Shown piece by piece: positions 15,641 to 43,456 of a stretch of DNA of 46,413 bases. The DNA comes from Lysobacterales bacterium RIFOXYA1_FULL_69_10 (GTDB taxonomy: Bacteria > Pseudomonadota > Gammaproteobacteria > Xanthomonadales > Xanthomonadaceae), in assembly GCA_001830245.1 (NCBI GenBank), contig MIDV01000039.1, positions 1 through 46,413 on the forward strand, in the 5' to 3' direction. Under the pieces are notes generated by a model. That model had not been told where the DNA came from. It did not search any database and worked only from the letters and a program-made list of their open reading frames with translations. The position numbers were made by a program, and so were the translations under genes. Within the stretch, counting starts at the first letter, position 1; every line of letters begins with the position of its first letter.

Positions 15641-15660
15641 ATTCCCGCAGCAGCGGGAAT
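15641..15660. repeat. REP-like palindrome between etfB and etfA
   Basis: ATTCCCGC (15641-15648) and GCGGGAAT (15653-15660) form a perfect 8-bp stem with a 4-nt loop, followed by GACGG. The sequence resembles the dispersed CATTCCCGC...GCGGGAATGACG palindromes common in proteobacterial intergenic regions. It lies 23 bp before the etfA start inside the operon. Confidence 0.55.
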
Positions 15661-15682
15661 GACGGAACAGGAACCACCCGCC

Positions 15683-16630: not shown

Positions 16631-17806
16631 GTGCAGGGCGTGGACAAGAAGGTGATGGTGGTTTTCGGCACCCGGCCGGAAGCCATCAAGATGGCGCCGG
16701 TAGTGACGGCGCTCCAGGCGATGGATGGGGTCGAGACGCTTGTCGCGGTCACCGCCCAGCACCGGCAGATGCTGGATCAGGTCTTGGACCTGTTCGACAT
16801 CTCGCCCGATGACGACCTGGATGTAATGGAGCCCGGACAGACACTCCCAGGCGCCTTTTCCAAGATCCTCCTCGGAATGGGCCGCGTGCTCGAGTCCAGG
16901 CGCCCGGACCTGGTGCTGGTCCACGGCGATACCAGCACGACACTGGCCACCGCCCTCGCGGCGTTCTACGCAAAGGTGCCCGTGGGCCACGTCGAGGCCG
17001 GTCTGCGCACCGGCAACATGCAGGCACCGTGGCCCGAGGAAGCGAATCGGCGTTTGACCGCTCCGCTGACCTCGCTCCATTTCGCACCGACCACCCGGTC
17101 CCGCGACAACCTGCTTGCCGAGGGCATGCACGGTGAACATGTGCATGTCACCGGCAACACCGTTATCGATGCCCTGCTTGCGGTGGCGGCGCGGATCAAA
17201 TCGGACGACCAACTCAAGAAATCCCTCGCCGCGAAGTTCCCCTTCATCGACGGGTCGAAGCGACTTGTTCTCGTGACCGGACATCGCCGCGAAAACTTCG
17301 GAGACGGCTTCGAACAGATGTGCGCGGCCCTTGCCGACCTTGCGGATCGCGGGGACGTGCAGGTGGTCTACCCCGTGCACCTCAATCCCAACGTCCAGGA
17401 GCCGGTCAATCGCATCCTGGGCAACCGGCCGGGCATCGTCCTCATCGAGCCGCAGGAGTACCTGCCCTTAGTCTATCTGATGACGCGCTCGCACCTGATC
17501 CTTACCGACTCGGGAGGCGTGCAGGAAGAGGCGCCTTCGCTGGGCAAGCCGGTGCTGGTGATGCGCGAGACGACCGAGCGCCCCGAAGCCGTAGAGGCCG
17601 GTACCGTCCGCCTTGTCGGCACCAACCGGGACAGGATCGTCGCGGAAACCGGGCGCCTGCTGGACGACCCTGATGCGTACGACGCCATGTCGCGAGCGCA
17701 CAATCCTTACGGCGACGGCCATGCCGCGTCGCGTATTGCCGCCTTGATTGCCGGACGCAACGATGTCGCTCCGTTCGTGACGCCACAGACAGAGGCCGTG
17801 CCATGA
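16631..17806 (+). CDS. wecB: UDP-N-acetylglucosamine 2-epimerase (non-hydrolysing)
   Basis: Converts UDP-GlcNAc to UDP-ManNAc, the precursor that WecC (39.1-40.4 kb) oxidises to UDP-ManNAcA. The product is 391 residues if it starts at GTG 16631; GTG 16640 and ATG 16655 are alternatives, and no strong ribosome-binding site decides. Family motifs are [49 protein letters not shown] and [18 protein letters not shown]. It is the first gene of the plus-strand glycan train. Its stop overlaps manC (ATGA). Confidence 0.94.
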
Positions 17807-28506: not shown

Positions 28507-29563
28507 CAATCACCTCTCGATCTTGAAAATCCTGATAAACGAATTCGCGGGCGTTGAGCGATAGTTGCCGGGTCGGTATGCGCCCGGAAACGAGTTCTGA
28601 GAGTAAGCGCGCTCGCGAATCCGAGGAAAAATTGGCCTCTACTGCGAGGCGGGCTGCCCTCCGCACCTCTTCGCGACGGCTGCCAATCTTGAGGCTGTCT
28701 ACAAGAGAAAGAACCTCATTCATGTCCTGAGCGTATAGAGCCCAAGGCGCATGTTGGCTAGGTGGAGCGCGTGTAATGACTGGAAGGCCCACCGCCGCAT
28801 ACTGGATAACGCGACTAGGCAGATCGAACCATCCAAGCTTTGGTAAAGCCTTGAAGTCGTATGCGCTACCTGCGTAATCTGCGAACACTTGTGGAAGGTT
28901 TAGGCCGGCAACAAAATGCGGGAGCACCGCTAATAGTGCCGGCACTCCGTACAGCTCGCCCTTGTGCATGCCGTAAGGATCGTTGAGCACTTTGCCGTAG
29001 ACGCAGATGCGGTCCGAAGCTTGGGACAGCAACTTATACCGATCTTTCTTAGCCGTGGTATGCAGGTTTCCTATAAAAACCAGGTCGCGGCGTGGAGTGC
29101 TAGCTGTAGCTTCACCCGTGTAAGACCAAATATTGGGATCAATCCAAAACGGCATGTTGATGCCGGGCTGGTGTCCTCGTGCCTGATAAAAATCCAGGAC
29201 AGGTGTGCTCCCGCAGTGCAGCACATGGTCATAACAGTCGACGACATGCCTGTAAGTTACTTCATAAAGAACTGGATCGTCGGGCAGCCACACAATGGTT
29301 TGAATCCCTGCCGCTTTAAGCCTGGATATTTGAGCCTCGGAGAGCGCGCTGGCGCGGAAATTCAGAAGTGCGTCCGGACGACCAGCCAAGACAGTTTCCA
29401 CTACTGCATCGATTCGCTCTATGTCGCGAGTCGAAGTCGTAAAGCGATGCCCGTGCCAGACTGGCCCTGTGGATACAACTTCATGCCCCAGAGCGCGGAG
29501 AGAGCCTTCAAGGGCGACGCAGACGTGTCTTTCAACGACCTCATCGAATAGCACAATCTTCAC
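28484..29563 (-). CDS. CgeB-like glycosyltransferase
   Basis: A 359-residue GT-B protein starting at GTG 29563, with GAGGG about 8 bp upstream. The CgeB pattern (spore-maturation protein CgeB family, glycosyltransferases) is visible as ALLNFRASALSEAQI, VWLPDDPVLYEVTYRHVVDC, MPFWIDPNIW, LVFIGNLHTTAKKDRYK and the C-terminal DLPSRVIQYAAVGLPVITR. An open frame continues 35 codons upstream to 29668 but the conserved part begins with VKIVLFDE. It is the first gene of the AT-richer part of the minus-strand train, after a 176-bp gap, so it may have its own promoter. The sugar and acceptor are unknown. Confidence 0.8.
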   Translation of the reverse strand: MKIVLFDEVVERHVCVALEGSLRALGHEVVSTGPVWHGHRFTTSTRDIERIDAVVETVLAGRPDALLNFRASALSEAQISRLKAAGIQTIVWLPDDPVLYEVTYRHVVDCYDHVLHCGSTPVLDFYQARGHQPGINMPFWIDPNIWSYTGEATASTPRRDLVFIGNLHTTAKKDRYKLLSQASDRICVYGKVLNDPYGMHKGELYGVPALLAVLPHFVAGLNLPQVFADYAGSAYDFKALPKLGWFDLPSRVIQYAAVGLPVITRAPPSQHAPWALYAQDMNEVLSLVDSLKIGSRREEVRRAARLAVEANFSSDSRARLLSELVSGRIPTRQLSLNAREFVYQDFQDREVIGEPESSY

Positions 29564-29567
29564 TGGG

Positions 29568-29711
29568 TTACCCTCGCTCTCCTGCACCAGATCGACGCCT
29601 GCATAGAGAACAAGCACCGTCGCCGCTTTGCGTGCCCGTTCCGTGCAAAGCTTCGCGCGAAAGCGCACCCGGACGGTGCAACGCGTTCACACGTCGCTTG
29701 AGAGATTTCAT
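29568..29711 (-). other. Small open frame upstream of the CgeB-like gene, possible frameshifted leader
   Basis: An ATG at 29711 opens a 47-codon frame (MKSLKRRVNALHRPGALSREA...) that ends at TAA 29568, just before the GTG start. A second frame from 29668 runs through TERARKAATVLVLYAGVDLV into the CgeB-like gene. Read together across a single frameshift they would form a longer, basic then hydrophobic N-terminus. It may also be a chance frame. Confidence 0.25.
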
Positions 29712-29739
29712 TCTGAATCTCGCCTAATTGCTGGGCAAA

Positions 29740-31155
29740 TCAAAACTGGAAATAGATGAAGCTCTTGACGGCCAGGGGCATGCTGGCAAGTGCCAATGCG
29801 GCAATGCCGCCAAGCACGAACGCAGCCACCTGGGGCTTGAGCGTGGGCAGGCGCGACGCCAATCGCAAGCGCGCCGAGCTGACACCGATCATCAATGTAT
29901 CGATGAAGAGCGGCAGAAGAACCGCCAGATAGGGAATCGCCGCCCGCGTGTCACCCGCGCTTACGCCGACGAACGCCTGCAGTACGTCGACGGTATCGCC
30001 GAAGTCCTGCGCACGGAACGGGATCCACGTGAGAAGCACAAACAGCTGTGTGACCGCCCAGGCCGCTGCACCCCATAGAACGGCGACCATCGCCGGGCGC
30101 GGGATGGCGCCGGTGAGCCCCGCCCAAGCCTTGTGGACCGAAAGTGCCAAACCATGCAACGCACCCCACAGGACGAAGTTCCAGCTGGCGCCGTGCCACA
30201 GGCCGCCCAGCAGCATGGTGATCATCAGGTTGCGCTGGCGCTTGGCTTCGCCTCCCCGGTTGCCTCCCAAGGGGATGTACAGGTAGTCGCGCAGCCACGT
30301 GGACAACGAAATGTGCCAGCGCCGCCAGAACTCGGTGATGCTGGTCGAGATGTAGGGATACGCGAAGTTGCGCATCAGCTCGAAGCCCAGCATCCGCGCG
30401 ACGCCGATGCCCATCATTGAGTATCCGGCAAAGTCGAAGTAGATCTGGCCGTAGAACCCGACAGTGGCCATGACCTTGGTGTGCGCATCGAACTGGCCGA
30501 CATCCGCGAACACCTGATCGACGAACGGGGAGATCGAGTCCGAGAACACGGACTTGTAGATGAATCCAACGAGGAACAGCTTCATGCCCACCAGGAACTG
30601 CGTGGAGTCGAAAACCTTCTCGGTCCTCAGCTGGGGCAGGAAGTCCGACGCCCTCACGATGGGGCCGGCCACGAGCTGCGGGAAGAATGAAATGTAGAGG
30701 CCGGTGTGGACGATGTCGCGCTCGGCGGGAATGACGCCCTTGCGTACATCCAGCACGTAGCTGATTGCCTGGAAGGTAAAGAAGCTGATGCCCACCGGCA
30801 GCAGGATCTCCAGTGTGGGCGTGGACAGCGTCACGCCAACCGACGACGCCAGTCCCAGGAGCGACTCGCTGAAGAAGTCGAAGTACTTGAAGACCGCGAG
30901 CACGCCCAACATCAGCACGACGGCCGTGATCGTGACGGCCTTCGGCGCGATGTTCTTCTCGATCATCCGCCCCGCGGCATGGCAGACAACGATCGCGAAC
31001 CACATGAGCGCAAGGAAGCGGTAGTCCCACCAGCCGTAGAACACCTGGCTTGCGACAAGAAGCAACAGGATGCGCGCCCGGGCCGAGCGCAGCGACCAGA
31101 ACGCGCAGAAGACAATGGCGAAGAAAATCAGGAACGGTACGGACGAGAAAATCAT
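29740..31155 (-). CDS. MBOAT-family membrane O-acyltransferase (AlgI-like)
   Basis: A 471-residue polytopic membrane protein that should pass acetyl groups from the cytoplasm to a periplasmic partner for glycan O-acetylation. The AlgI/DltB signature is clear: EFWRRWHISLSTWLRDYLYI (His281 region) and the catalytic-type LLGGLWHGASWNFVLWG (H321), with GISFFTFQAISYVLDV and YFDFAGYSMMGIG earlier. It overlaps the SGNH-like gene by 4 bp, matching AlgI-AlgJ/AlgX, PatA-PatB and related pairs. It is high-GC, unlike the genes just downstream. Alginate itself is unlikely because no alginate polymerase genes are here. Confidence 0.93.
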   Translation of the reverse strand: MIFSSVPFLIFFAIVFCAFWSLRSARARILLLLVASQVFYGWWDYRFLALMWFAIVVCHAAGRMIEKNIAPKAVTITAVVLMLGVLAVFKYFDFFSESLLGLASSVGVTLSTPTLEILLPVGISFFTFQAISYVLDVRKGVIPAERDIVHTGLYISFFPQLVAGPIVRASDFLPQLRTEKVFDSTQFLVGMKLFLVGFIYKSVFSDSISPFVDQVFADVGQFDAHTKVMATVGFYGQIYFDFAGYSMMGIGVARMLGFELMRNFAYPYISTSITEFWRRWHISLSTWLRDYLYIPLGGNRGGEAKRQRNLMITMLLGGLWHGASWNFVLWGALHGLALSVHKAWAGLTGAIPRPAMVAVLWGAAAWAVTQLFVLLTWIPFRAQDFGDTVDVLQAFVGVSAGDTRAAIPYLAVLLPLFIDTLMIGVSSARLRLASRLPTLKPQVAAFVLGGIAALALASMPLAVKSFIYFQF

Positions 31156-32270
31156 GGCTGCGTGCTTCCCGAATCATTCAATGCGCCTTTGAGGCGCTGT
31201 GCGAGCCAGCGCGTGTAGATGCGCGCGCCAGGCTTCATGAGGTGGCCGTCGTCGTACCAGAACCGCCTGTGGTCGAGCCTGCGCAACAGCCCCCGGTGCG
31301 CATGGACAATGCAGGCATCCTCCACCGCGGCGCAAAAACCGCGGGCGTAGGCCATGTCGTGGACGCGCGGCGTGGGCACGGAGAAATAGACCGTCTGAAT
31401 CCCAGCGCCGCCCAGTGCATTTTCGAAGCGTTGACGCCGCTGCTGGATGTTTGGCCACGGCAACTCGTCGCTTGCCACCGGCGGCTCATCCAGACTTTTG
31501 ACGGCGCCTCGCGTGCCCTTGAACCGATAGCCCTTGGAGGCACGCGTGAGGGGTGTGAACCCGCCGCTTGATGCGACTTCGTGGGCCGGGATCACCCGGT
31601 GCAGTTCGCCTACGTTGAACAGGTTGATTGCAGCGTGGGAGACGGCGTCGATCCATTGTTGCCTGAGCAGGTCCGGCTTCAAGGCACCGTTCTCGGCGCG
31701 AACAGCGGCCGCCAGGACGTCCGTGTCCAGGTATGCGAACGCCCTGTCCGAATAGCGGTTTCGCCGTAGCTGGACGAGGGGATAGCGGTCGTACTGCGGA
31801 TGGATCTCCAGAAGCAACACCTTCCTCGCCTTCCCGAAAGCGTCCCGCTCCGCGGGCTCCAGGATTGCAAGTGCGCGGTTGAGGACGCTCCAGCGTTCAA
31901 GCTGGTTCCCCCCTGGCAGGGAAAGCGAGACTACCGTCATCGCATGATGGCCTTCGACGGCCAGGTGGCGCTCCAACATGCGCTCGTCCAACCCGCGTGC
32001 GGCGTAACTGCCGCCATCGAGGATCAGGAATCCGTCGTTGTCTGGGTTCGCGAGACCGCTCCGGATCGATTGCGCGGCACGAAATGCCAAGCCCGAGGTA
32101 GAGGCATTGGGAAGGAAGCGAGGGGGTGCCAGCACATAGCCCACCAACGCCACGCCCAGTGCGGCGCCGAGGCAAAAGAGCCCGATCGTGGCACCGAGCC
32201 GCCGTTTGCCGCCCACCCGCAGCAGCTGGAGCATCAACAGCACGATAATTCCGGAAACAATCGCTAGCAC
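31152..32270 (-). CDS. SGNH-like membrane-anchored protein, probable O-acetyltransferase partner of the MBOAT protein
   Basis: A 372-residue protein from GTG 32270, chosen because AAGGA lies 9 bp upstream; TTG 32297 is the upstream alternative. It has an N-terminal membrane helix pair (about 1-55), then a periplasmic domain. GFLILDGGSYAARG could be SGNH block I (a GxS-type nucleophile), and the C-terminal FWYDDGHLMKPGARIYTRWL has the Asp/His arrangement of block V (DxxH). Similarity to AlgJ/AlgX is weak, so the role comes mainly from the 4-bp overlap with the MBOAT gene. Confidence 0.65.
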   Translation of the reverse strand: MLAIVSGIIVLLMLQLLRVGGKRRLGATIGLFCLGAALGVALVGYVLAPPRFLPNASTSGLAFRAAQSIRSGLANPDNDGFLILDGGSYAARGLDERMLERHLAVEGHHAMTVVSLSLPGGNQLERWSVLNRALAILEPAERDAFGKARKVLLLEIHPQYDRYPLVQLRRNRYSDRAFAYLDTDVLAAAVRAENGALKPDLLRQQWIDAVSHAAINLFNVGELHRVIPAHEVASSGGFTPLTRASKGYRFKGTRGAVKSLDEPPVASDELPWPNIQQRRQRFENALGGAGIQTVYFSVPTPRVHDMAYARGFCAAVEDACIVHAHRGLLRRLDHRRFWYDDGHLMKPGARIYTRWLAQRLKGALNDSGSTQP

Positions 32271-32293
32271 TTCTACTGGTCCTTGTACTGATA

Positions 32294-34000
32294 TCAAATG
32301 ACCGGCTCGCCGGGGGCAGCCGCCTCAAAGCGAAACCGCAACAGCGAATGCAGATGGTTGCCGGCCCATTCGAATGCGAGGACCTGCACGGGCTCCAGCG
32401 TGTTGGAGAAGGGCGAGTAGCTCGCACCCTGCTGTCCCGGGATGCCGGGATCGACGAGATGGATCTTGGCGCGGCGCGCAGTCAGGTTTTCGATGACCAG
32501 CCTGGCGCCAGTACGGCGGGAGGTCACGACCACGCACTTCTCTTCGATCCGGATGTCCTTGTCGGCCGGGATGTGCCAAAGGGACAGGTAATTGCGCCGC
32601 ACCGGCGGACCGGATGGGACAAGCGTGTCGACAACGTCGAACGTTCGTCCGGTAGGGCACGCGATGAGATCGCGTGTAGCGACGTGATCAGGATAGGTCC
32701 GGGTGACGGCACGTACTGCGCTAACGCCTTCCGCGCTCGGCAGGCGCAGCATCGGCAGCACCAGCTCCGGCGCAGCCCATTTCCAGCGCAACCGGGGTGG
32801 GGTCCGCACAACCGGGACGTTATGCCCCCACTTGGACCGAACGTAGCGCCTGATCGGATCGTCCTCGGCGTAGCGATATGCACCCGAGTCCACGAGCCAG
32901 TCCTCGCCATCGCAGTACAAAACGATGTTCAGGTCATCGTCGTGGCGGTGGTATGCCGAACGGTAGCCGCAGCGGAGCACCAGATGAAACGCGCTACGCC
33001 CCTCGCCAGGTGGTTGCCATGCGTCCCGGGCGATGAAGTAGCCGGCTTGCGGATACAGCACGGCGGTCTGCGATGGCGGTTGACCCTCTGCACCGTCGGT
33101 CGTCGCATACCGGAGATGCGTGTAGTCGCGCGTCTTGCGATATCGCTTGAAGTAGTTGGGGATCGGATCATTGACGGTATCCCCGATGATCGGGAGGGTC
33201 CCGTCAGGGCGCGTGATGTGCGTCAGGAAACGGATGGCGCGCGGCATCAGTGCGTCGATACGGTCGGCCAGCTCCGCGATCTCCTCGCGGGGAAAGTAGT
33301 CGAGTATCTTCAGGAATGATAGACACACGTAGGCGTGGTAGCCGGGGCTGTTCTCCACGTGCACGCCTTCTTTGGTGAACGCGAAATCCAGCTCATCGCC
33401 CAGCCGGCCCACCGCCAGCGCGAGCCAACCCCGTGCATCGGGATCGGCAACCAGAAAGTCACCGATGACAGCCAGGATGCGTGACTGCTCGATGCCGTGG
33501 TTGGTGTGGCGGGAGTAGAAGTCGTCGATTGAAAGCAGGCGGGCATGGTTGCGTATGGCAACGGCGATCTCGGCCTGGTCCTTCTCGCGAATGCCTTCGC
33601 TGGACAGGTACGCGAGCAGGAAAACGAGGTTTTCCGCCTGGTTGGCGACGGCATGGTCGTTGTGCGCGAACTCGTATTTCCGCAGTGGTCCGGCGACTGC
33701 GCGTTGCCATGTGCGCAGTGCGCTCATCGCCCAGTCCAGTGCCGAGTTGTCTCCGCTCGCGGCGTGGCGCGCGATCAACGCCGGCATGAAGCGGAAGGCA
33801 GCCACGGCCCACTGCCAGCTGCGGCTGCCTAATGGATTGGCTGACCAGTCCTGCTGGATGTCCACGGCCACTTCCGGGTAGCCATTGATGGACACGACGC
33901 CATCGTGGACCAACCTTCGACCGGCCTCGGCAAGTTTCTCGCTGCGCTTGAACCCGGAAACGCGTCCAAGGAGCGCCTTCGGCATGTGCACCTTGGTCAT
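32294..34000 (-). CDS. Heparinase II/III-family polysaccharide lyase
   Basis: A 568-residue protein with the two-domain layout of the family. An alpha/alpha-toroid N-terminal region (about 60-270) includes TNHGIEQS and GVHVENSPGYHAYV; a beta-sandwich region from about 310 on includes SAYHRHDDDLNIVLYC and DWLVDSGAYRY. Tyr221, His222 and His351/His353 are candidate catalytic or binding residues. Such enzymes cleave uronate-containing polymers by beta-elimination. No signal peptide is visible, so location is unclear; similar proteins occur in several polysaccharide export clusters. It overlaps the giant glycosyltransferase gene by 4 bp (ATGA). Confidence 0.88.
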   Translation of the reverse strand: MTKVHMPKALLGRVSGFKRSEKLAEAGRRLVHDGVVSINGYPEVAVDIQQDWSANPLGSRSWQWAVAAFRFMPALIARHAASGDNSALDWAMSALRTWQRAVAGPLRKYEFAHNDHAVANQAENLVFLLAYLSSEGIREKDQAEIAVAIRNHARLLSIDDFYSRHTNHGIEQSRILAVIGDFLVADPDARGWLALAVGRLGDELDFAFTKEGVHVENSPGYHAYVCLSFLKILDYFPREEIAELADRIDALMPRAIRFLTHITRPDGTLPIIGDTVNDPIPNYFKRYRKTRDYTHLRYATTDGAEGQPPSQTAVLYPQAGYFIARDAWQPPGEGRSAFHLVLRCGYRSAYHRHDDDLNIVLYCDGEDWLVDSGAYRYAEDDPIRRYVRSKWGHNVPVVRTPPRLRWKWAAPELVLPMLRLPSAEGVSAVRAVTRTYPDHVATRDLIACPTGRTFDVVDTLVPSGPPVRRNYLSLWHIPADKDIRIEEKCVVVTSRRTGARLVIENLTARRAKIHLVDPGIPGQQGASYSPFSNTLEPVQVLAFEWAGNHLHSLLRFRFEAAAPGEPVI

Positions 34001-37000
34001 TCGAGTTCCGTTCCCGGGACCCGGATGTTTCCTCTCGCTGCGCGCACGGCGTCGATCAGGGGCGCGATGAATCGCTCCCCCACCACAGTGAAGCGGTAAT
34101 CGGCCGCAAGTCGTTGCACTGCCTGTTGCACCTGCTGCAACCGGGTACGATCCCGCGCCATCGCACGCAGGCTTTCAAGGAGCTGCGCGGACGTGGCCAG
34201 AAGTGGATAGTCGTCGCCCAGCACCCTGCGATTGACGGGACCTGGCGCAATCAACGGCGCAACACCCATCGCGGCATACTCGAGCACCTTGGTGGACAGC
34301 TCGAGGGTCCCTTCCTCAAGCGAGGCATGTCGCCATGCCCAGCCCACGTCCATCGTTGCCAGCTGCGCCATCACCCCGCTGCGGTCGCATGCACGGTGCC
34401 AGTTGATTCCATCGCCCGCCTCAAGACGTGCCCGCACTTCGTCACGGAACCCGGGGTCGTCCAACGGATTATGGATCTTGTCACCGAACACGTGCAGTTC
34501 GACCGGGATTCCCTCCGCGCGAAGCTGGTCGAAGGTCGAGAACAGTTCGCGGATGCCCCACTGGGGCGCGAACTTGCCTGCGTAAACAAGCCGCAGGGGG
34601 CCGCTCGTAGAACACCGCGCGCTCCCTTCTCCGCTGGCGGTGTCGGGCACCATCGGCGGCAGCAGCCGCGTCTTCCCGCTGGCCAGCGGGACAAGTCGAA
34701 GTAGGTGCTGTTCCAGCTCCGGCGTCTGGCACAGAACGACCGACGAGCCTGCAACGACCTCCTCGAGGCGAGCGTGCTGGGCCGGGTCGATGTCCGACGA
34801 ATCCTGTGGGATATCGGTGAGGTACACCCAGATCCGATCGTTCAGGGCCACACGGTCGACCGCCTCGCGCGCGAGCACGAATCCGCGTAACACGATGGCG
34901 TCATAGCGTCGGACCGCATGGGCCTGCACGATGGCGTCGAGCGCCTGGCCCGGGGACCGCCGGCCGACGCCAGCATCCGGCTCGATCAACCGGACGTTGA
35001 CCGCACCCAGAAGTTCGCGAATCACGGCGGTCTGGCGGATTGGCGCCTTGAGGAACAAGTCCACGTCGACCTGGTCGCCTTCCGCCAGCACCCGGGCCAG
35101 CGACGCGGCCCAAATGGCCGAACCGTCGATCAGGTTCATGTCCAGATCGCCGTACAGCGCGACCCGCGGTCGTCGTGCGGGGGCCTCGCTGGCCGACGCA
35201 TTGTCGGGACCGGACTCCACCCCGTTGATCAGCGCGACCTCGCGATCCAGCGTTTGCGCACGGCCACTCTGGTCGCGCACCCTTCGCGCCGCTGCTTCCG
35301 ACAGTCGCGTGAAGGTTTCGGGCTCGTCATACAGCGTCCGGATGGCATCGGCCATCCCCTTCCAGTCCTCGGCACCCACGATCAGCGCAGATCGCTCGTC
35401 GACGAACTCCGGGATCGCGGACACCCTGTTGGTGACCGGAACCAGGCCGGATGCCATGGCCTCGTCGCGGGAGACACCCTGCGAGTCGATACGGGTGGGC
35501 GCCAGGAACACGCCGTAGTCGCGATGCATGCCAGCGATCTCGGCTTGGCTGAGGAATCGCTTTTCCAGGACCACGTTCCGCATGCCACGCAGCGGCTCGA
35601 CGGTCTGCTCGAACAGTCGGCCGTCGCCCACCAGCCTGAAGTGCAGTGAAGGGAAGTAGGGCTCGTTCGAGAGGTCGAGGATCGCCTTGACGGTCAGGTC
35701 GTTGGCATACGTGGGACGGGTGTAGGGTCGGATCGACAGGAGCCGCAGTCGCTGGTCGATTGCCTTCGGCCGGTACTCGAACAGATCGCCATCCACGTGG
35801 TTGTGGATGACCGTGTAGCGCGATTCATCGAGTTCGATGCCAACGTCTCGGAATGCTTCGCGTGCGAGGTGTCGCGATACGAACACAAAGGTCACGTTGT
35901 CGGGGGGCGCTGCGAAAAGTTCCCGCCAGAACGCCATGCGCTCGTTACTGCGCTGGATACCGCGCTCGCGATCGCGTTCGTCGAGGAAGCTGAACTCACG
36001 GCGGTACCACGGCTGGATCTCCGCGCCATGGATCCATACAAGGATCCGCCGCTCCGCTGCGTGGGGCTCGAGCACCGACCACAACGCCCGGTCCAGCGAG
36101 TGCGCCATGAGCGTTCGATGGGTGTTGCTGCGGATCATGAGTTCGAGATCGGCCAACTGGCCCGACACGACATCCACGCCCTCGAATTCGTCGAATGCCA
36201 TGTGGTCGTCGACGAGGCGGAACACGTCGACATCCGTCCCTTCCTCGGCATAGCCCAGTACGCGCCTGTGCACGTACGCATAGCTGTAGAGGTTGGTATA
36301 GGCCGGATAGCCGCGGCTGATGAGAAGGTGGCGACCTCGCGCCGGCACACCTGCAGCCGGCGAGGGCACGTGACCCAGCACGAGGCGCCTGAGCAGGGCT
36401 GTCCCGCTTCCCTGTATGCGCAACCCAAGCCGGACCGTGTGGGTTCCTGCAGGCGCAACCAGGCTGAGATTGGAGCTGCACGCGCGGATCGCATGACCGA
36501 TCCGCTCGCCCTTCCCGTCCAGGAAGATCATGACGAAGCTCACCAGCATCTCGGATTCAACGGCCATGTTGAACTTGCCGATGGCGCCGTCGAAGAGATC
36601 CTCCGACGGTACGGGCGAGCTGGCGTACAGGTAGACATGCCTGTCGGACGGCAAGGTGGAACGCAGGCGAAGGCCGGTGGCCTCCTGGTCCAGGCGCACG
36701 GCGCCGTGGGCATGCGACCCGACAGGCAACAGTTCGGCGAGACCGGCGGCGTCGACCGACCGGCTCGTAGACTGCTCGGCCGCAAGCACGTCCGCCGCGG
36801 TCGCGGTCTCGGCCAACCTGTGCAGCCGCTTGAGGGAAATGCCGGTCCACAGATCGGGCAAGTCGTCGACCATCTCCTGCACGTCCTGGCCGGATCCGAC
36901 CATGCAGTAGTTGTATTCGTCGACGGAACAGGCCCCCTCAAGCACTCGATCCGGGGCGTCACGCGCGATATCCAAGGCACTTGCCAAAGGGGCGGAGTGG

Positions 37001-39078
37001 GCCGCAACGATCGCGCGACGCCAAGCCACCGCTTCGTCCTGCCGATACTCCCTGCCGGCACCCTGCAGGCGGACCTGCCCATCCGCCCAAGCGTGGTAGG
37101 CCGCCTTGCCGATCACAGACGCGCTGGCGTACCGCGTCGCCAGCGCGAGATCAAGGAGGTAATTGGGACCGTAGTGATCTTGCGGGCAAAGGCAGGCGAG
37201 CCAGGCATCAGGCCAACGTGCCGCGACATCGATCTGGGCGGCCGCGTGCTCGTCAACCACGGTCAGGCCTGGTCGCAGCGGGACAGGGTCCGACCCCACC
37301 GGCATGACCAGCAGCAGCTCCTTCCGCGCGTGCACCTGCTGCGAAAACGTCGCCCATGCCGCCTCTGCGTGTGCGGCGCCGGACGCCCTTGCGATCGCGA
37401 CCACATGAGGCAGGTCGCCTTCGAGTGGTTTGCCACCGATCTTTTCGAGTACGTAGCGCCAGCGGTCCTGGTACGTGTGTTCGGAAATTACCTTGCGCAG
37501 GCCTGCGAGACGGAACCGGCGATAACGTGTTTCGTCCTCCACCAGCGGGCGGACCCTCTGGTCAAGCTGTCCCGCATCGTCACTCGTGATCACGAGGTCG
37601 CCGAGCAGCATCCTCAAGCCACGGGAGAAATTGCTCACCGTGACGGTGTTGCTCGCAAGCAGGTCGAATGCCCTGCGGGCGAACATGCTCTGGGACTGTT
37701 TGACGGTATTGATGTTGATGCCGAATCGATAGCCCTTGTAGGCCATCGATATCTGATCGTGCGGAAGCGATCCCTGGATCAGTGGCGCGTACTCATCGGG
37801 GAAAAGCAGAGCGGGATCGTTCTTTTCCGCATTGCGGTCGAAGATCTCGACGGGCCGAAGGGCACCCATTGCCTTCACAAGGGTCGCGAAATCCCGTTGG
37901 CGCTCGGGGTACTTCGCATAGAAGGAGCCCGCGAAGCAGAACGCGTCCTTCCGGCGGTACTCCTCCATCGGATTGTGATCAGCCGGCTGGCACGCGAAAG
38001 GCAGCCAATAGACCTGCTCATGGCCGAGCGCCGCCTTGTACGCGCGGACGCAGTCGATATCGGTGGTGAACACGAAATCGAACTGCCGCGCCGTGCGCAT
38101 GAACACGCTGAGGTGAACAGGGTCCTCCTTGTTCCAGAAGGCGGTCGGTATCCCCCGCTCCCGGCACCAGCGGATCAGTTCGACCAGATCCCTGGACAGT
38201 GGATAGACCTTGCGGGCCCAGCTCTCATCAAGACCCTTCCACGCCGACTCCACCAGCAGCATGTGGGGCGAAAAATCTTCGATCTCGTCGCGCCAGCGAT
38301 CGCCATGCAGCTGCCTGAAGTTGCCACAGTGACGGAATGCGGCGAACGAAAATTCGTCCATGACAGTCGCAACGCGCATCGTCGCGGTGTCATCCGGAAG
38401 GCGCGGTGCGGTGGCGGTGCCCAACAGCATGCGGGCAATACTCCTTGCACCGTTATTCTCTTCGGCATCCGCCAGCGCCCGCCCTGCACCCAACGACAGC
38501 TCGGGTCCGAAGTCGGGCCTGTCGGAAGTGCTCGCTCCTCCTCCACGCAGCCGCCTCAGAATCCGGGGCCACAACTCCCTGAACAGCTTCGCCAGCGCCA
38601 CGGGCAGGCGCAGGAGGCTGGACGGCTGACGCACCGCATCAACCAGCAACGAACCAAGCCGGAACGCAAAGGAACTCCGCAACGCCGCCAGTTCTGCCTC
38701 GGCAGCCGACAGCGCGCGACGTTGCTGCACCGCCTGGCGATTGAGTCGCGCCCGATAGGCAAGCTGCTCCTCAAGCTTGGACGCCAGCCTGCGGACTTCT
38801 TCAGCACGTGCGTCCAGCCCGTCCAGCGATATCTCCCTATCGTTGGCCGTCGACGTCGAAATAGTCTCTACGGACTCTTCGACGGCTGTGATCGCACGGG
38901 ACAGCGAATCTGCCGAAACCGGATCCATCCGCCCCTGCTCCAGCGCCATGTCCAGCGCTTCGCGCAGCGCCACGCATGCCTGAACGACAGGCAGCGACTG
39001 TCCGGCACTGTCGGCGCTCCCGGTGTGGGAGGCATGGTCGCCTATGGCGTTGGCTTCGGAGTTGGGCGTGTCGGACAT
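33997..39078 (-). CDS. Giant multi-domain glycosyltransferase, 1,693 residues
   Basis: From the ATG at 39078 the protein reads: a helical, coiled-coil-like segment (about 85-135); a CgeB-like GT domain (about 235-550, with TAFWNKEDPVHLSVFMRTAR and INTVKQSQSMFARRAFDLL); a degenerate GT2-like segment (about 555-750, with CPQDHYGPNYLLDLALATRY); a beta-rich domain (about 780-905); and two GT4-type domains (about 915-1285 with GVSRDEAMASGLVPV; about 1303-1680 with LVYAGKFAPQWGIREL and STKVLEYAAMGVAPLI). No signal peptide or membrane helix is evident, so it should work in the cytoplasm building the glycan before export. The sugars are unknown. It overlaps the lyase gene and follows wecC by 45 bp. 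Confidence 0.85.
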   Translation of the reverse strand: MSDTPNSEANAIGDHASHTGSADSAGQSLPVVQACVALREALDMALEQGRMDPVSADSLSRAITAVEESVETISTSTANDREISLDGLDARAEEVRRLASKLEEQLAYRARLNRQAVQQRRALSAAEAELAALRSSFAFRLGSLLVDAVRQPSSLLRLPVALAKLFRELWPRILRRLRGGGASTSDRPDFGPELSLGAGRALADAEENNGARSIARMLLGTATAPRLPDDTATMRVATVMDEFSFAAFRHCGNFRQLHGDRWRDEIEDFSPHMLLVESAWKGLDESWARKVYPLSRDLVELIRWCRERGIPTAFWNKEDPVHLSVFMRTARQFDFVFTTDIDCVRAYKAALGHEQVYWLPFACQPADHNPMEEYRRKDAFCFAGSFYAKYPERQRDFATLVKAMGALRPVEIFDRNAEKNDPALLFPDEYAPLIQGSLPHDQISMAYKGYRFGININTVKQSQSMFARRAFDLLASNTVTVSNFSRGLRMLLGDLVITSDDAGQLDQRVRPLVEDETRYRRFRLAGLRKVISEHTYQDRWRYVLEKIGGKPLEGDLPHVVAIARASGAAHAEAAWATFSQQVHARKELLLVMPVGSDPVPLRPGLTVVDEHAAAQIDVAARWPDAWLACLCPQDHYGPNYLLDLALATRYASASVIGKAAYHAWADGQVRLQGAGREYRQDEAVAWRRAIVAAHSAPLASALDIARDAPDRVLEGACSVDEYNYCMVGSGQDVQEMVDDLPDLWTGISLKRLHRLAETATAADVLAAEQSTSRSVDAAGLAELLPVGSHAHGAVRLDQEATGLRLRSTLPSDRHVYLYASSPVPSEDLFDGAIGKFNMAVESEMLVSFVMIFLDGKGERIGHAIRACSSNLSLVAPAGTHTVRLGLRIQGSGTALLRRLVLGHVPSPAAGVPARGRHLLISRGYPAYTNLYSYAYVHRRVLGYAEEGTDVDVFRLVDDHMAFDEFEGVDVVSGQLADLELMIRSNTHRTLMAHSLDRALWSVLEPHAAERRILVWIHGAEIQPWYRREFSFLDERDRERGIQRSNERMAFWRELFAAPPDNVTFVFVSRHLAREAFRDVGIELDESRYTVIHNHVDGDLFEYRPKAIDQRLRLLSIRPYTRPTYANDLTVKAILDLSNEPYFPSLHFRLVGDGRLFEQTVEPLRGMRNVVLEKRFLSQAEIAGMHRDYGVFLAPTRIDSQGVSRDEAMASGLVPVTNRVSAIPEFVDERSALIVGAEDWKGMADAIRTLYDEPETFTRLSEAAARRVRDQSGRAQTLDREVALINGVESGPDNASASEAPARRPRVALYGDLDMNLIDGSAIWAASLARVLAEGDQVDVDLFLKAPIRQTAVIRELLGAVNVRLIEPDAGVGRRSPGQALDAIVQAHAVRRYDAIVLRGFVLAREAVDRVALNDRIWVYLTDIPQDSSDIDPAQHARLEEVVAGSSVVLCQTPELEQHLLRLVPLASGKTRLLPPMVPDTASGEGSARCSTSGPLRLVYAGKFAPQWGIRELFSTFDQLRAEGIPVELHVFGDKIHNPLDDPGFRDEVRARLEAGDGINWHRACDRSGVMAQLATMDVGWAWRHASLEEGTLELSTKVLEYAAMGVAPLIAPGPVNRRVLGDDYPLLATSAQLLESLRAMARDRTRLQQVQQAVQRLAADYRFTVVGERFIAPLIDAVRAARGNIRVPGTELE

Positions 39079-39123
39079 GTACAACCAGACTGGCAAGGAT
39101 GAAGCAGCGGGCGCGTACGGGAA

Positions 39124-40395
39124 CTATCGCCAATATCCGACGGTATCCACCAGGTGCTTGCCTTCAGGCCGCGGAAAGGCACGGAAGGCGGTGTGCCCTA
39201 CCAGCAGGACGACAATCCCGGCCTTGGCAAACGCCTCGTCGGCAGCCACCAGGTTGAGGCCCGCACGTTGCCGCATGCTGTCATCCAACGCATCCGCGTA
39301 GGGATCGCTGGAGAGAATGCGATCGCCATACTTTGACGTAAGGGATTCAGCAATCGAGAACGCCGGGCTTTCGCGGAAGTCATCCACGTCGGGCTTGTAC
39401 GTCAGTCCCAGGCAGGCAACCTGTGCTTCGGGCCAGCGCTTCATCGCCTGCTCGACCTGGTCGATGACGAATTGCGTCTTGCCGTCGTTGATCTCGCGTG
39501 TCGCGCGAATCAGGCGCGAACGCTCCGGCGCACTGGCCACGATGAACCACGGGTCGACCGCGATGCAGTGCCCCCCCACACCGGGCCCGGGATTGAGGAT
39601 ATTGACGCGGGGGTGCCGGTTCGCCAGCTCGATGACCTTCCATGCATCCAACGAGAGATCAGAGCAGATCATCGACAACTCGTTGGCGAATGCGATGTTG
39701 ACGTCACGGAACGCGTTCTCGGTCAACTTGACCATCTCGGCGGTCCGGTCGTCAGACAGGTGACAGGTGCCTCGTACGAACGCGCCGTACAAACGCGCAG
39801 CACGCTCGGAGCATCGCGCCGTCATTCCACCAATGATCCGGTCGTTCTCCACCAGCTCCTGGAGCATGCGCCCCGGAATGATGCGCTCAGGGCAGTAGGC
39901 GATGCAGACATCGGCCTCTTCTCCCTTCTGCTGCGGAAAGCTCAAGTCGGGACGCGCGTTGGCGAAAAGCTCGGCCAGCATCCCGGTCGTCCCGACGGGG
40001 GACGTGGACTCGAGGATGACAAGATCACCTTTCTTGAGATGCGGCGCGATCGCCTCGCCCGCGGCACGGACATGCGTAACATCCGGCGTCCGCTCCTGGT
40101 CATGACCCACGGGGGTAGGGACTGCGATGATGAAAGCATCGGCCTGTACCGGAGTCGTGGTCGCGCGAAGCATGCCCGCCTTGACGCAACGCCCCACGAG
40201 TTCATCGAGCTCGCCCTCCTCGATGTGCGCTGTTCCCGCATTCACCGCGGCAACCGCTTTCGGATTGATGTCCACGCCGGTCACATCCACACCCGTCGAC
40301 GCGAACATGGCGGCAGTAGGCAGACCGATGTAACCCAGGCCTATTACCGCCAGTGTCGTGGGGTGGGCTTGCGATGTGTTGTCCGTTTGGTTCAT
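39124..40395 (-). CDS. wecC: UDP-N-acetyl-D-mannosamine dehydrogenase
   Basis: Oxidises UDP-ManNAc (made by WecB, 16.6-17.8 kb) to UDP-ManNAcA in two NAD-dependent steps. The 423-residue protein has LAVIGLGYIGLPTAAMFA (NAD binding), ESTSPVGTTGMLAELF, CPERIIPGRMLQELV, the active-site Lys in MVKLTENAFRDVNIAFANE and the catalytic Cys277 in GVGGHCIAVDPWFI. The pattern favours WecC over the closely related UDP-glucose dehydrogenases. It is separated from wzt by 51 bp and from the giant GT gene by 45 bp. Its partner wecB lies at the opposite end of the locus on the other strand. Confidence 0.93.
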   Translation of the reverse strand: MNQTDNTSQAHPTTLAVIGLGYIGLPTAAMFASTGVDVTGVDINPKAVAAVNAGTAHIEEGELDELVGRCVKAGMLRATTTPVQADAFIIAVPTPVGHDQERTPDVTHVRAAGEAIAPHLKKGDLVILESTSPVGTTGMLAELFANARPDLSFPQQKGEEADVCIAYCPERIIPGRMLQELVENDRIIGGMTARCSERAARLYGAFVRGTCHLSDDRTAEMVKLTENAFRDVNIAFANELSMICSDLSLDAWKVIELANRHPRVNILNPGPGVGGHCIAVDPWFIVASAPERSRLIRATREINDGKTQFVIDQVEQAMKRWPEAQVACLGLTYKPDVDDFRESPAFSIAESLTSKYGDRILSSDPYADALDDSMRQRAGLNLVAADEAFAKAGIVVLLVGHTAFRAFPRPEGKHLVDTVGYWR

Positions 40396-40446: not shown

Positions 40447-41289
40447 TTATGCGGCCGGCGTCTTACCCCGCTCCCTGGGAGCTGTGGCTTTCCGCTTCTT
40501 CGCTTTCACCGGCCGCTTTTCACGCCGGGGTACGTAACCGGGCAGCGCTTGGTAGATTGCCTTGTACGCATCGATGGCCTGTTCAACAGGGCCAAGGAAC
40601 ACCTGCCTGCCGCCATCGAGGACGAGTCCCCGATTGCAGGTTTTCCTGACCGTCTGCAGGTTGTGGCTGGCCATGATCATGATCCGGCAGCCATCGACAC
40701 GATCGGAAAGCCGTGTGCGTGCCTTGTTTACGAAGCTGGCGTCGCCGGCACCAAACCATTCGTCCATCAGCATGATGTCGTGCTGGACAGCGGTGGAAAT
40801 GGCGAAGCCGAGCCGCATGCGCTGTCCGGATGAAAGTGTCAGCAGGCGATGTTGGGCGACTGCAGACAACCCGGCGAAGTCGAGAATCGCGCCGGCGAGC
40901 TCCGACATGGTGGACAGGGACAACCCCATCGCCGTACCGCGGAGGAAAATGTTTTCCCGTACCGTGGCGTTCTGGTTGAAGCCAAGAGACAGGTTCAGAA
41001 GTGCCTGCCTCGTCCCATTTAGGACGACAGTGCCGCTGGTAGGTTGGAACGCGCCGCTCAAGACCCGTAGGAGCGTCGTCTTGCCCGCCCCGTTGCGACC
41101 CAGGATCGCAACCCTGTCTCCATCATCGAACCTGAAGTCAAGGCCATCGAGGATCGTCCGGTACTCACGCCTTGAGCGTACGAATGCTTCGGAAAGCACT
41201 TCGCGCACCCAGCCTGAAGCCGCCGGAGTCCGTTGGACGAAATTGGGCACCTTGAGCGCAAGGTCGCGCGCTATCACGCTCGCTTTCAT
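40447..41289 (-). CDS. wzt: Polysaccharide ABC exporter ATP-binding protein (Wzt/KpsT-like, no C-terminal glycan-binding domain)
   Basis: ATPase of an O-antigen or capsule-type exporter. From ATG 41289 it has 280 residues: Walker A ILGRNGAGKTT (about 62-72), signature LSSGQRMRL, Walker B IMLMDEWFG and the switch histidine in ASHNLQTV. An N-terminal extension (about 1-45) precedes the nucleotide-binding domain. The protein ends in a Lys/Arg-rich tail (KRPVKAKKRKATAPRERGK) and is too short for the glycan-binding C-terminal domain of E. coli O8/O9a Wzt. A longer frame to 41379 was rejected. It sits 8 bp after wzm. Confidence 0.9.
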   Translation of the reverse strand: MKASVIARDLALKVPNFVQRTPAASGWVREVLSEAFVRSRREYRTILDGLDFRFDDGDRVAILGRNGAGKTTLLRVLSGAFQPTSGTVVLNGTRQALLNLSLGFNQNATVRENIFLRGTAMGLSLSTMSELAGAILDFAGLSAVAQHRLLTLSSGQRMRLGFAISTAVQHDIMLMDEWFGAGDASFVNKARTRLSDRVDGCRIMIMASHNLQTVRKTCNRGLVLDGGRQVFLGPVEQAIDAYKAIYQALPGYVPRREKRPVKAKKRKATAPRERGKTPAA

Positions 41290-41297
41290 GTCCAATG

Positions 41298-42131
41298 TCA
41301 GACCCACAGCGCGACGAAGCGCGCATACCGTCGATAGAGAAGCGCCGCGAGCAGCCAGCCCACTACAGCCATCGCGCAAGCGATGATGATGGAGGCCTGC
41401 TCGGGCGCATGCCCCAGAACGGGTGCACGGACCAGATCCACCAGATGGAATGCCGGATTAAGTCGCGCAAGCATCCCGCGCATCGAGTCCGGTGGGAACC
41501 GATCGATCATCCACAGGATTGGCGTCAGCAGGAACCCGGCCACCAGAATCGTGCCAATTGCATCCTTGGTATCAGGGAACCGCGCGCCGACCAGTCCGAT
41601 GCAGACGGCTACCCAGAACAGGTTGGCCAGCAGGAGCGGCATGGTGATCGCAATCGTCGCGAGCGATGCGACGCCCTCCCATGACTGGTACCAGAGTACG
41701 ACCGCGGCCACCACGACCAGGCCGAACAGCATCTGCAGTCCGGCCTTGGCGAACGAACGCAGGATGAAGTCGGTCAAGCGTACCCGGCCATCCATGATGA
41801 ACGCCTTGTGGGACGCAAATGCGCCCGCGGACTCGTTGATAACCTGGAGCATGAACCGCCAGACCACGTAACCCGTCGCCAGGTACGGCATGTACGTCTC
41901 GATGGGATAGCCCATCAGTCGCGAATACACGTTGCCCAGCAACAGCACGAATATCGCAGTGGGAAGGCACAGCCACGCCAGGCCGAGCAATGAACCACGA
42001 TATCGGGTTACCAGGTCGAGCCAGCTGGAATACATCCAGAAGGACGGCGACCTCAGGCTCTCAATCAGGCTGGCGAAAAGCCCGGCCGGCCGCGCCGACA
42101 GAGTGCCGGTCATGCCGGCAGAAGATGTCAT
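41298..42131 (-). CDS. wzm: Polysaccharide ABC exporter permease (Wzm/KpsM-like)
   Basis: Inner-membrane channel subunit paired with Wzt to export the lipid-linked or lipid-capped glycan. The 277-residue protein fits the ABC-2 family: a cytoplasmic N-terminus ending in SPSFWMYSSWLDLVTRYRGS, six hydrophobic segments, and the conserved cytoplasmic-loop region GARFPDTKDAIGTILVAGFL followed by TPILWMIDRF and LNPAFHLVDLVR. Its ATG overlaps the metB stop (ATGA), so it is probably translated from the metB transcript. No Wzx or Wzy gene is in the locus, consistent with ABC-dependent export. Confidence 0.92.
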   Translation of the reverse strand: MTSSAGMTGTLSARPAGLFASLIESLRSPSFWMYSSWLDLVTRYRGSLLGLAWLCLPTAIFVLLLGNVYSRLMGYPIETYMPYLATGYVVWRFMLQVINESAGAFASHKAFIMDGRVRLTDFILRSFAKAGLQMLFGLVVVAAVVLWYQSWEGVASLATIAITMPLLLANLFWVAVCIGLVGARFPDTKDAIGTILVAGFLLTPILWMIDRFPPDSMRGMLARLNPAFHLVDLVRAPVLGHAPEQASIIIACAMAVVGWLLAALLYRRYARFVALWV

Positions 42132-43315
42132 TGAAGCGACCCCAGTGCTCGCTCAATGTCGGCTCGCAGGTCTTCGCAGCTTTCCACCCCCACCGACAAT
42201 CGAACCAGCGCATCCGACAGCCCCAGCTGCGCCCGTCGTTCGGCCGGCACGGACGCATGCGTCATGATCGCCGGGTGGTTGACCAGGCTTTCCACGCCGC
42301 CGAGGGACTCGGCCAGGGCGAACAGTTCGGTGCGCTCGCAGAAGCGCTTGGCGGCGTCCAGGCCACCCTTGAGCACGATGGAGACCATGCCGCCGAAGCC
42401 GTCCATCTGGCGCTTGGCGAGTCCGTGCTGCGGATGTGATTCCAGCCCGGGGTAGATGACCTTCTCGATCGCCGGGTGGCCTTGCAGCCATTCGGCCAGG
42501 GTCTGGGCATTCTCGCAGTGGGCCTTCATGCGCAGGTGCAGGGTCTTCAGGCCCCGCAGGGCGAGGAAGCTGTCGAACGGGCCCTGCACGCCGCCGATGG
42601 AGTTCTGCAGGAACGCCATCTGCTCGGCCAGCTCGGCATCGTCGCCGACCACCACCATGCCGCCGACCATGTCCGAGTGCCCGTTGAGGTACTTGGTGGC
42701 CGAGTGCATGACGATGTGCGCGCCGTGTTCCTGCGGGCGCTGCAGGATGGGCGAGCTGAAGGTGTTGTCGACCACCACGATGAGGCCGCGCTTGCGGGCG
42801 ATCGCGGCGATCTGGGCGATGTCCACCAGCTTGAGCAGCGGGTTGGTCGGGGTCTCGATCCAGACCATCTTGGTCTCGGGCCGGATCGCCGCTTCGAACG
42901 CGGCCGCGTCCGCCAGGTCGACCCAGCTGAAATCAAGGCCGGCGCTGCGGCGGCGCACGCGCTCGAACAGGCGGTAGGTGCCGCCGTACACGTCGTCCAT
43001 CGCGATCACGTGGCTGCCCGTGTCGAGCATCTCCAGGATCGTCGAGGTCGCGGCCAGCCCGGAGGCGAACGCAAACCCGCGGGTGCCACCTTCCAGCGCG
43101 GCCACGCAACGCTCGTAGGCGAAGCGGGTCGGGTTGTGGCTGCGCGAGTACTCGAAGCCCTGATGCTCGCCCGGGCTGGACTGCACGTAGGTCGAGGTGG
43201 CGTAGATCGGCGTCATCACGGCGCCGGTGCTGGGGTCCGGCGACTGGCCGGCATGGATCGCCAGCGTGCCAAGGCCCTGCTTGTGCGGGCCGCCGCGTGG
43301 GGTGTTATCGCTCAT
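42128..43315 (-). CDS. metB: Cystathionine gamma-synthase/lyase family PLP enzyme (metB)
   Basis: PLP-dependent Cys/Met metabolism enzyme of 395 residues from ATG 43315. The PLP lysine is in HSATKYLNGHSDMVGG (K208); FEYSRSHNPTRFAYERCVA, FASGLAAT, TPTNPLLKLVDI and the C-terminal LVRLSVGVESCEDLRADIE are also present. Sequence alone does not cleanly separate gamma-synthase (MetB) from gamma-lyase, and a cystathionine beta-synthase gene next door makes a lyase role plausible. In xanthomonads metB is the right border of the LPS locus. The upstream open frame to 43405 lacks conservation and was not used. Confidence 0.93.
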   Translation of the reverse strand: MSDNTPRGGPHKQGLGTLAIHAGQSPDPSTGAVMTPIYATSTYVQSSPGEHQGFEYSRSHNPTRFAYERCVAALEGGTRGFAFASGLAATSTILEMLDTGSHVIAMDDVYGGTYRLFERVRRRSAGLDFSWVDLADAAAFEAAIRPETKMVWIETPTNPLLKLVDIAQIAAIARKRGLIVVVDNTFSSPILQRPQEHGAHIVMHSATKYLNGHSDMVGGMVVVGDDAELAEQMAFLQNSIGGVQGPFDSFLALRGLKTLHLRMKAHCENAQTLAEWLQGHPAIEKVIYPGLESHPQHGLAKRQMDGFGGMVSIVLKGGLDAAKRFCERTELFALAESLGGVESLVNHPAIMTHASVPAERRAQLGLSDALVRLSVGVESCEDLRADIERALGSLQ

Positions 43316-43350
43316 CAAGTCCTTCCATCCGCGGCCATGCGCGGTCGCGG

Positions 43351-43356
43351 ATTCTA
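43351..43356 (-). promoter_or_regulatory. Possible -10 box (TAGAAT) upstream of metB
   Basis: GTTAGAATCC on the minus strand lies about 36 bp before the metB ATG, in a 141-bp gap. The same TTAGAAT core precedes the etfB and cystathionine beta-synthase genes. No -35 match was found. It would be the only candidate promoter seen before the roughly 13-kb tightly packed run from metB to the MBOAT gene. Confidence 0.4.
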
Positions 43357-43456
43357 ACATCGGGGCCTGCCCGCCCGGCCTTGGCAGGACCTTGTAACTG
43401 AACAAGGTGAAGGGCCAAGTCGGGCTGGAGTAACGGGTGCGCTTCGCTGACCCGGG

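Follow-up and report, generated by a model that had tools for sequence, protein, structure and literature searches.

The DNA analysed, called the window here, is a whole stretch of 46,413 nucleotides from Lysobacterales bacterium RIFOXYA1_FULL_69_10 (contig MIDV01000039.1), and it contains a lipopolysaccharide (LPS) locus bounded by etfA (15659-16624) and metB (42128-43405). Besides wecB, manC, wecC and the genes of an ABC exporter, the locus has genes for a GT2 glycosyltransferase (GT), methyltransferases, an epimerase, an MBOAT acyltransferase and a heparinase II/III-like protein. Published xanthomonad LPS loci are likewise placed between etfA and metB, with wzm and wzt at the metB side, in the available excerpts of PMC2238763. 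The gene of a large protein with several GT modules (the multi-GT gene and protein) lies in this LPS locus together with the Wzm/Wzt ABC exporter. The features are as follows, the modules being given from N- to C-terminus.

16631..17806, plus strand: wecB, UDP-GlcNAc 2-epimerase (PF02350, 393 bits)
19249-20127: GT2 of the locus
28484-29668: PF13524-like GT
32294..34000, minus strand: heparinase II/III-like protein (PF07940 and PF16889)
33997..39078, minus strand: multi-GT gene, uninterrupted ORF with ATG start, 1,693 aa
38662..38856, minus strand: heptad-rich stretch, residues 75-139, probable coiled coil (heptad score)
38539..38664, minus strand: amphipathic-looking FRLG...LP segment, about residues 139-180, with the motif at 139-162
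37429..38427, minus strand: CgeB/DUF3880-type GT-B module, residues 218-550 (PF13524), putative uronosyltransferase
36883..37413, minus strand: GT-A fold module without DXD, residues 556-732 (AlphaFold and fold search), proposed pseudo-enzyme
36370..36762, minus strand: CBM-like beta-sandwich, residues 773-903 (AlphaFold and fold search), few conserved columns
35209..36306, minus strand: GT4a, retaining-type GT-B module, residues 925-1290 (PF13692)
34030..35172, minus strand: GT4b, GT-B module, residues 1303-1683 (AlphaFold and fold search)
39124..40395, minus strand: wecC, UDP-ManNAc dehydrogenase, the next gene upstream of the multi-GT gene (NF008286, 576.7 bits, cut-off 459)
40447..41379, minus strand: wzt-like ABC ATPase (PF00005, 75.6 bits), no C-terminal CBM recognised
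41298..42131, minus strand: wzm-like ABC permease, assigned by similarity and position

The permease gave no Pfam family above cut-off, and its similarity to the annotated permease of the Escherichia coli ATCC 8739 capsule locus is 23% identity over 240 aa (E 2e-9). No GT26/WecG-type domain, the type of the known ManNAcA transferase, was found among the window proteins scanned.

Several other genes of the locus were also noted. A second PF13524 (CgeB-like) domain is fused to a CsaB-type pyruvyltransferase at 25615-28509 (minus strand), and a copy 57% identical is present in L023. At 29740-32297 (minus strand) a DltB-like MBOAT acyltransferase (TIGR04091, under cut-off) is paired with a 381-aa partner that has no Pfam or NCBIfam match; L024 has a similar pair. 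The LPS locus also includes, at 24313-25614 (minus strand), a CheR-type methyltransferase that scores 88.6 bits with PF01739 and weakly matches TPR. The GC content of 24001-30000 is 54-58%, against mostly 60-70% in the rest of the window, and this part may be a recently acquired block. The heparinase-like protein at 32294-34000 has no obvious N-terminal signal peptide by eye, and blastp relatives of it occur in nine of 21 compared loci, while an annotated heparinase or alginate-lyase gene is present in L060, L061 and L062. A uronic-acid polymer could be its cytoplasmic substrate, the protein serving as a lyase or as a C5-epimerase, a role for which dermatan sulfate epimerase is the precedent.

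The multi-GT gene is intact. A single protein of 1,693 residues had been called at this position in the first-pass annotation, and it is borne out by an ORF that is uninterrupted and conserved in relatives, the five closest in the family sample showing 45-50% identity over 1,064-1,593 query residues. An alternative TTG start six codons upstream of the ATG would give 1,699 aa, and the last 4 bp of the multi-GT gene are shared with the start of the heparinase-like gene. Long ORFs on the opposite strand (e.g. 35797-39102) were taken as shadow ORFs in a region of 63-66% GC.

The modules of the protein are distinct folds. From the N-terminus they are a heptad-rich part, a CgeB/DUF3880-type GT-B module, a GT-A module without DXD, a CBM-like beta-sandwich and two GT4-type modules, and at least two GT modules are thus joined in one chain as in multi-module O-antigen polymerases. 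The same list and order, apart from the heptad-rich part, had been read from the sequence beforehand, and both were upheld by profile searches and structure prediction, in which the segments came out as separate folds: Pfam profiles support the CgeB module and the first GT4 module, and AlphaFold models with fold searches support GT-A, beta-sandwich and GT4b. Before residue 218 there is only the 65-residue heptad-rich stretch, as seen with a crude home-made score, and no Pfam domain. The FRLG...LP pattern is matched by three of 1,193 ORFs from the loci of relatives, against 0.3 expected from shuffles, and we guess that this segment docks to the membrane or to a partner. Among the relatives, an N-terminal methyltransferase precedes a helical stretch in L026 (FkbM), L033 and L034, and either such a methyltransferase or a long helical N-terminus stands ahead of CgeB in L026, L032, L033, L034 and L037 (L032 and L037 by eye). 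This part is possibly an in-cis ruler and terminator in those five; no terminator domain was recognised in the window protein.

The CgeB-type GT is identified by PF13524 at residues 435-544 (73.4 bits, curated cut-off 25), with DUF3880 (PF12996) at residues 330-381 under its own Pfam cut-off. Across ten relatives this module has 38-62% identity to the window protein. A PDB sequence search with the CgeB profile gave nothing meaningful, and in the literature searched we found no assignment of a donor sugar to the CgeB-type GT group and no report of a CgeB glycosyltransferase in an O-antigen context.

Pfam finds nothing in residues 548-940 of the window protein, and in 11 relatives this region gave two weak and unrelated matches in one member each (YflT, E 0.014; DUF5632, E 0.1); a PDB search with the GT-A/beta profile also gave nothing meaningful. 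The AlphaFold model of these residues, built from an 11-row alignment, has a mean pLDDT of 81.1 and pTM of 0.53 and shows two well-predicted domains. The first (model positions 9-185) has the GT-A fold of active GT2 enzymes, with Z 12.6 to CgT, 12.2 to SpsA and 12.1 to TarP; in the second-look fold search (VIA) this domain fills most rows, which makes absences there uninformative. At both Asp positions of the DXD motif the window protein carries another residue, Cys and Gln, and hence lacks the DXD of an active GT2. Both Asp are missing in 22 of the 24 GT-A modules that come after a CgeB module, the window protein included, a count that omits two of 26 CgeB ORFs (they end right after CgeB) and includes two poorly aligning L037 modules. 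The remaining two, L034 of the same family and L063 of a Citrobacter plasmid, keep both Asp and match PF00535. Their proteins pair in the CgeB tree (98/95) inside a group of degenerate ones, and with seven of the 23 inner forks open the tree leaves the number of GT2 losses unsettled. Identity of the GT-A/beta part among relatives is 24-38%. We propose, from the residues at the motif, that the window GT-A module is a pseudo-enzyme whose ancestor was a GT2 of the kind that some relatives keep intact. The earlier count of four GT-like modules holds; its GT2-like member goes beyond degenerate, and since both DXD Asp are gone, probably three modules and not four are catalytic.

The second domain of the model (positions 226-356) is a beta-sandwich with Z 10.5 to 6oyc_B and 10.2 to 6lnw_C, which are chains of the Gap123 and Asp1/2/3 complexes, and Foldseek also returned CBM6, CBM61 and xylanase CBM structures; the fold is CBM-like. 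The beta-rich, possibly carbohydrate-binding domain of the first reading thus reappears as a predicted CBM-like sandwich. Conservation of this domain among relatives is low, and to judge from the alignment this fits a passive spacer as much as a glycan binder; in the core proteins of L022, L027 (first copy), L029 and L030 it was located by alignment alone.

The first GT4 module, GT4a, has PF13692 at residues 1126-1251 (64.5 bits, Pfam cut-off 27), its profile matches GlgA, BshA and MshA chains, and its identity among relatives is 43-57%. The motif D1198-x7-E1206, in which D replaces the first E of the E-x7-E type, is kept in 11 of 11 sequences. On residues 1290-1693 PF13692 reaches 25.0 bits, below the cut-off of 27, and the AlphaFold model of this part, built from five rows, has pLDDT 85.6 and pTM 0.83. 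It is a complete, full-length GT-B fold of GT4 type, with Z 31.6 to 6kih, 31.4 to MshA (3c4q) and 31.2 to BshA (3mbo) and a Foldseek E-value of 3.3e-14 to GT4 enzymes; the motif E1593-x6-E1600, spaced x6 instead of x7, is kept in 8 of 8. Both modules belong to GT4 by GT-B fold and E-x7-E-type motif, GT4b being placed by fold and GT4a by profile. A recent internal duplication found no support in profile-profile comparisons of two pairs, with probabilities of 1.2 for CgeB against GT4a and 0.9 for GT4b against GT4a, in alignments shallow enough for distant kinship to escape them.

In the family sample 16 of 198 genomes match at E <= 1e-20, a cut-off that, like the other E-value limits, was chosen by the analysts, in a scan limited to two scored candidates per genome, which may have missed some P0001 matches. 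Proteins running from CgeB to GT4b occur in four genomes, the window genome and three of the 197 others (G124, G075 and G122), and in G075 and G122 an extra N-terminal GT4 precedes the four-module order; a further N-terminal GT4 is noted for L024 and L025. The core alone (CgeB, GT-A, beta, GT4a) is present as six proteins in five genomes (L026, L027 twice, L028, L029, L030), and the CgeB and GT-A part without GT4a in seven genomes (L031-L037). GT4b is rare, with five of 198 genomes. The genome G027 has two different core proteins in one locus (L027 3986-7750 and 13531-17022), the first of which groups with TviB-linked ones in the CgeB tree. A genome of the same genus, G021, has no match, and the multi-GT gene is accordingly accessory.

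Outside the family, four of 398 genomes of a phylum-wide sample match at E <= 1e-30 (the counts above include two of these four), and no relative was found among 50,697 phage records at E <= 1e-10. Plasmid p2 of Caballeronia insecticola encodes, immediately after wecB-wecC, a four-module protein with 42% identity across 83% of the query; the three-module core is found on Leisingera plasmids, and Paenibacillus profundus has the core at 38% identity. The Paenibacillus sequence falls within an 11-row, otherwise proteobacterial clade of the CgeB tree (98/93), which points to horizontal transfer. In Cytobacillus spongiae a nucleotide-sugar dehydrogenase gene stands in one row with four adjacent genes (L062 7989-13416), for CgeB/GT-A, a GT4b relative (24%), a further GT4 and a member of the alginate-lyase family; the third of these cluster genes, the further GT4, was tried as a counterpart of GT4a and dropped (hhalign probability 27, 61 columns). 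Relatives of the Citrobacter CgeB-GT2 gene occur in 54 of 5,426 E. coli genomes, at about 70% identity in the 12 rows listed, and in E. coli ATCC 8739 this gene is behind wecB-wecC in a capsule locus. Serotype K7 of E. coli, to which the ATCC 8739-type locus might belong, has a ManNAcA-Glc repeat unit. The exact module order had been described as unfamiliar; no description of it was found in the literature searched, which left most subscription journals outside, and the order itself recurs in C. insecticola and G124 and, with an added GT4, in G075 and G122.

A genetic link exists between the CgeB module and UDP-HexNAc-uronate dehydrogenases. WecC (E <= 1e-80) is present in 14 of the 16 family genomes with a match and in 9 of the 182 without (p 8.8e-14), and by genus in 10 of 11 against 3 of 43 (p 1.2e-7), the scans for the multi-GT match and for WecC being assumed to cover the same 198 genomes (shared handles; unmatched genomes listed in part). 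Among 21 loci compared, 18 have a WecC relative at 42-70% identity, including L064, which has GT4b and no CgeB match; L029 and L030 have one at 33-34%, and in L061 none is in the stretch and wecC is just beyond. The two WecC-less genomes, G048 and G071, encode within the locus an enzyme whose closest match is TviB, a UDP-GlcNAc C-6 dehydrogenase (551 and 543 bits against a cut-off of 592). The argument from these two is weak because a TviB-type enzyme occurs somewhere in all 16 matching genomes, so that a test on TviB does not discriminate. The best equivalog matches of the Paenibacillus, Cytobacillus, G048 and G071 dehydrogenases all fall short of the curated cut-offs. Plasmids matching the CgeB module comprise ten records, nine of them annotated (H7 has no annotation and was dropped), and eight of the nine have a nucleotide-sugar dehydrogenase within 10 kb, a raw count without background control in which H8 and H13 are related loci and from which H9, H10 and H12, matching GT4b only, were excluded. 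Paracoccus albus has the CgeB module and no dehydrogenase within 10 kb. Since nine genomes carry WecC without a CgeB-family protein, other ManNAcA transferases exist, and the linkage is compatible with users of the uronic acid other than CgeB, namely GT4a, the GT2 at 19249-20127 or the GT at 28484-29668. This link is the most useful lead of the analysis and makes the CgeB donor directly testable.

We read the multi-GT protein as a single-chain, probably membrane-docked polymerase of an O-polysaccharide with an N-acetylated uronic acid, most likely ManNAcA, that is exported by the neighbouring ABC transporter, and we give this a probability of roughly 0.55. WecB and WecC would make UDP-ManNAcA and the CgeB module would transfer ManNAcA from it, while GT4a and GT4b would add one sugar each with retained configuration. 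The dead GT-A and CBM-like domains may serve to hold the chain as it grows or to keep the active sites apart, and the N-terminal coiled coil and amphipathic segment may dock the enzyme at a membrane complex. The polymerase reading is favoured by the position in a metB-etfA LPS locus that also has wecB, wecC and wzm/wzt-like genes, by the fold and motif results, and by the precedent of one-chain multi-module polymerases with ABC export in the available part of PMC11231755; ManNAcA transfer is favoured by the co-occurrence of WecC, the plasmid dehydrogenases and the lack of a GT26/WecG-type domain in the window proteins scanned. By analogy, from family knowledge and gene context, it is plausible that the protein makes several linkages, and a function in measuring or holding the chain is a guess from the CBM-like fold and the N-terminal heptad-rich stretch.

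The same modules might also act once each, so that the protein builds one defined oligosaccharide (a repeat unit, an adaptor or a side branch) and a separate enzyme polymerises. The locus does have other GTs, namely the GT2 at 19249-20127, the PF13524-like GT at 28484-29668 and the CgeB-pyruvyltransferase fusion at 25615-28509, and the further N-terminal GT4 of L024 and L025 also suits such a builder. However, the multi-module enzymes of ABC-exported O antigens are polymerases in the available part of PMC11231755, and the window proteins scanned (part of the ORFs) gave no Wzy- or Wzx-type Pfam match, and we hold this explanation to be unlikely. A somewhat better chance, though still on the doubtful side, is given to the idea that CgeB adds a common sugar and that the WecC link reflects a need of the whole enzyme for an acceptor that bears uronic acid and comes from another GT. 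Gene linkage reads the same for donor and acceptor use, and stand-alone CgeB genes stand beside the CgeB-GT2 genes in Citrobacter and E. coli loci; against this, CgeB is the module common to the WecC-linked proteins, with or without GT4a and GT4b. That the fusion is incidental, with modules that are independent enzymes and GT-A and beta domains that are decaying remnants without a role, appears highly improbable. Similar modules are indeed separate adjacent genes in Cytobacillus spongiae, but Xanthomonadaceae, Paenibacillus and Leisingera share one module order, CgeB, GT-A, beta and GT4a, with 38-45% identity, and because of this conserved order (beta by alignment alone in some core relatives) the fusion is taken to be retained.

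Starting from the single-chain polymerase, a wider proposal is offered tentatively, with the odds somewhat against it. The CgeB/DUF3880 modules that go with WecC or TviB may be HexNAc-uronosyltransferases of a family yet to be characterised, and in this lineage a decayed GT2 and a CBM-like domain may have been kept as a chain clamp inside a one-protein polymerase, replacing the second transferase of E. coli and Citrobacter and the CBM of some Wzt ATPases. If this is true, the CgeB-type GT group has its donor in UDP-ManNAcA or some related uronic acid, a catalytic module has become a structural part within a polymerase, and the acidic sugar of the polymer may be predicted from gene neighbourhoods in several phyla, some E. 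coli capsule loci included.

Among known systems, in the available part of PMC11231755 O-antigen polymerases have one GT module per linkage type, coiled-coil proteins serve as rulers and as scaffolds at the membrane, and Klebsiella O7 combines a methyltransferase-kinase, a CBM, a coiled coil and two GT2 modules in a single chain; WbbY (O1) has two modules in the excerpts of PMC10629545. WbdA, WbbB (Klebsiella O12), ORF6 (Klebsiella O7) and WbbY resemble the multi-GT protein in having several GT modules per chain, an LPS locus and an ABC exporter, and ORF6 shares the coiled coil and CBM as well. Their modules are mannosyl, rhamnosyl (GT2) and galactosyl transferases whose GT families and order differ from ours, and none, as described in the excerpts available, combines a CgeB module, a dead GT-A and an internal CBM-like domain. 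By fold, GT4b resembles the retaining GT4 transferases MshA, BshA and sucrose-phosphate synthase (complete GT-B fold, Z 31-32) with 13-15% identity to the top three GT4 structures, and residues 773-903 resemble CBM6-type and accessory-Sec Asp/Gap beta-sandwich domains at 10-16%. An E. coli large capsule protein of more than 1,100 residues has three domains by structure prediction in the excerpt of PMC13171606. E. coli ATCC 8739 and Citrobacter have, behind wecB-wecC, a CgeB-GT2 capsule protein in which the homologous CgeB is followed by GT-A; unlike the multi-GT protein it is without the CBM-like domain, GT4a and GT4b and has an intact GT2, and it would be a simpler form in which this GT2 serves as the second transferase.
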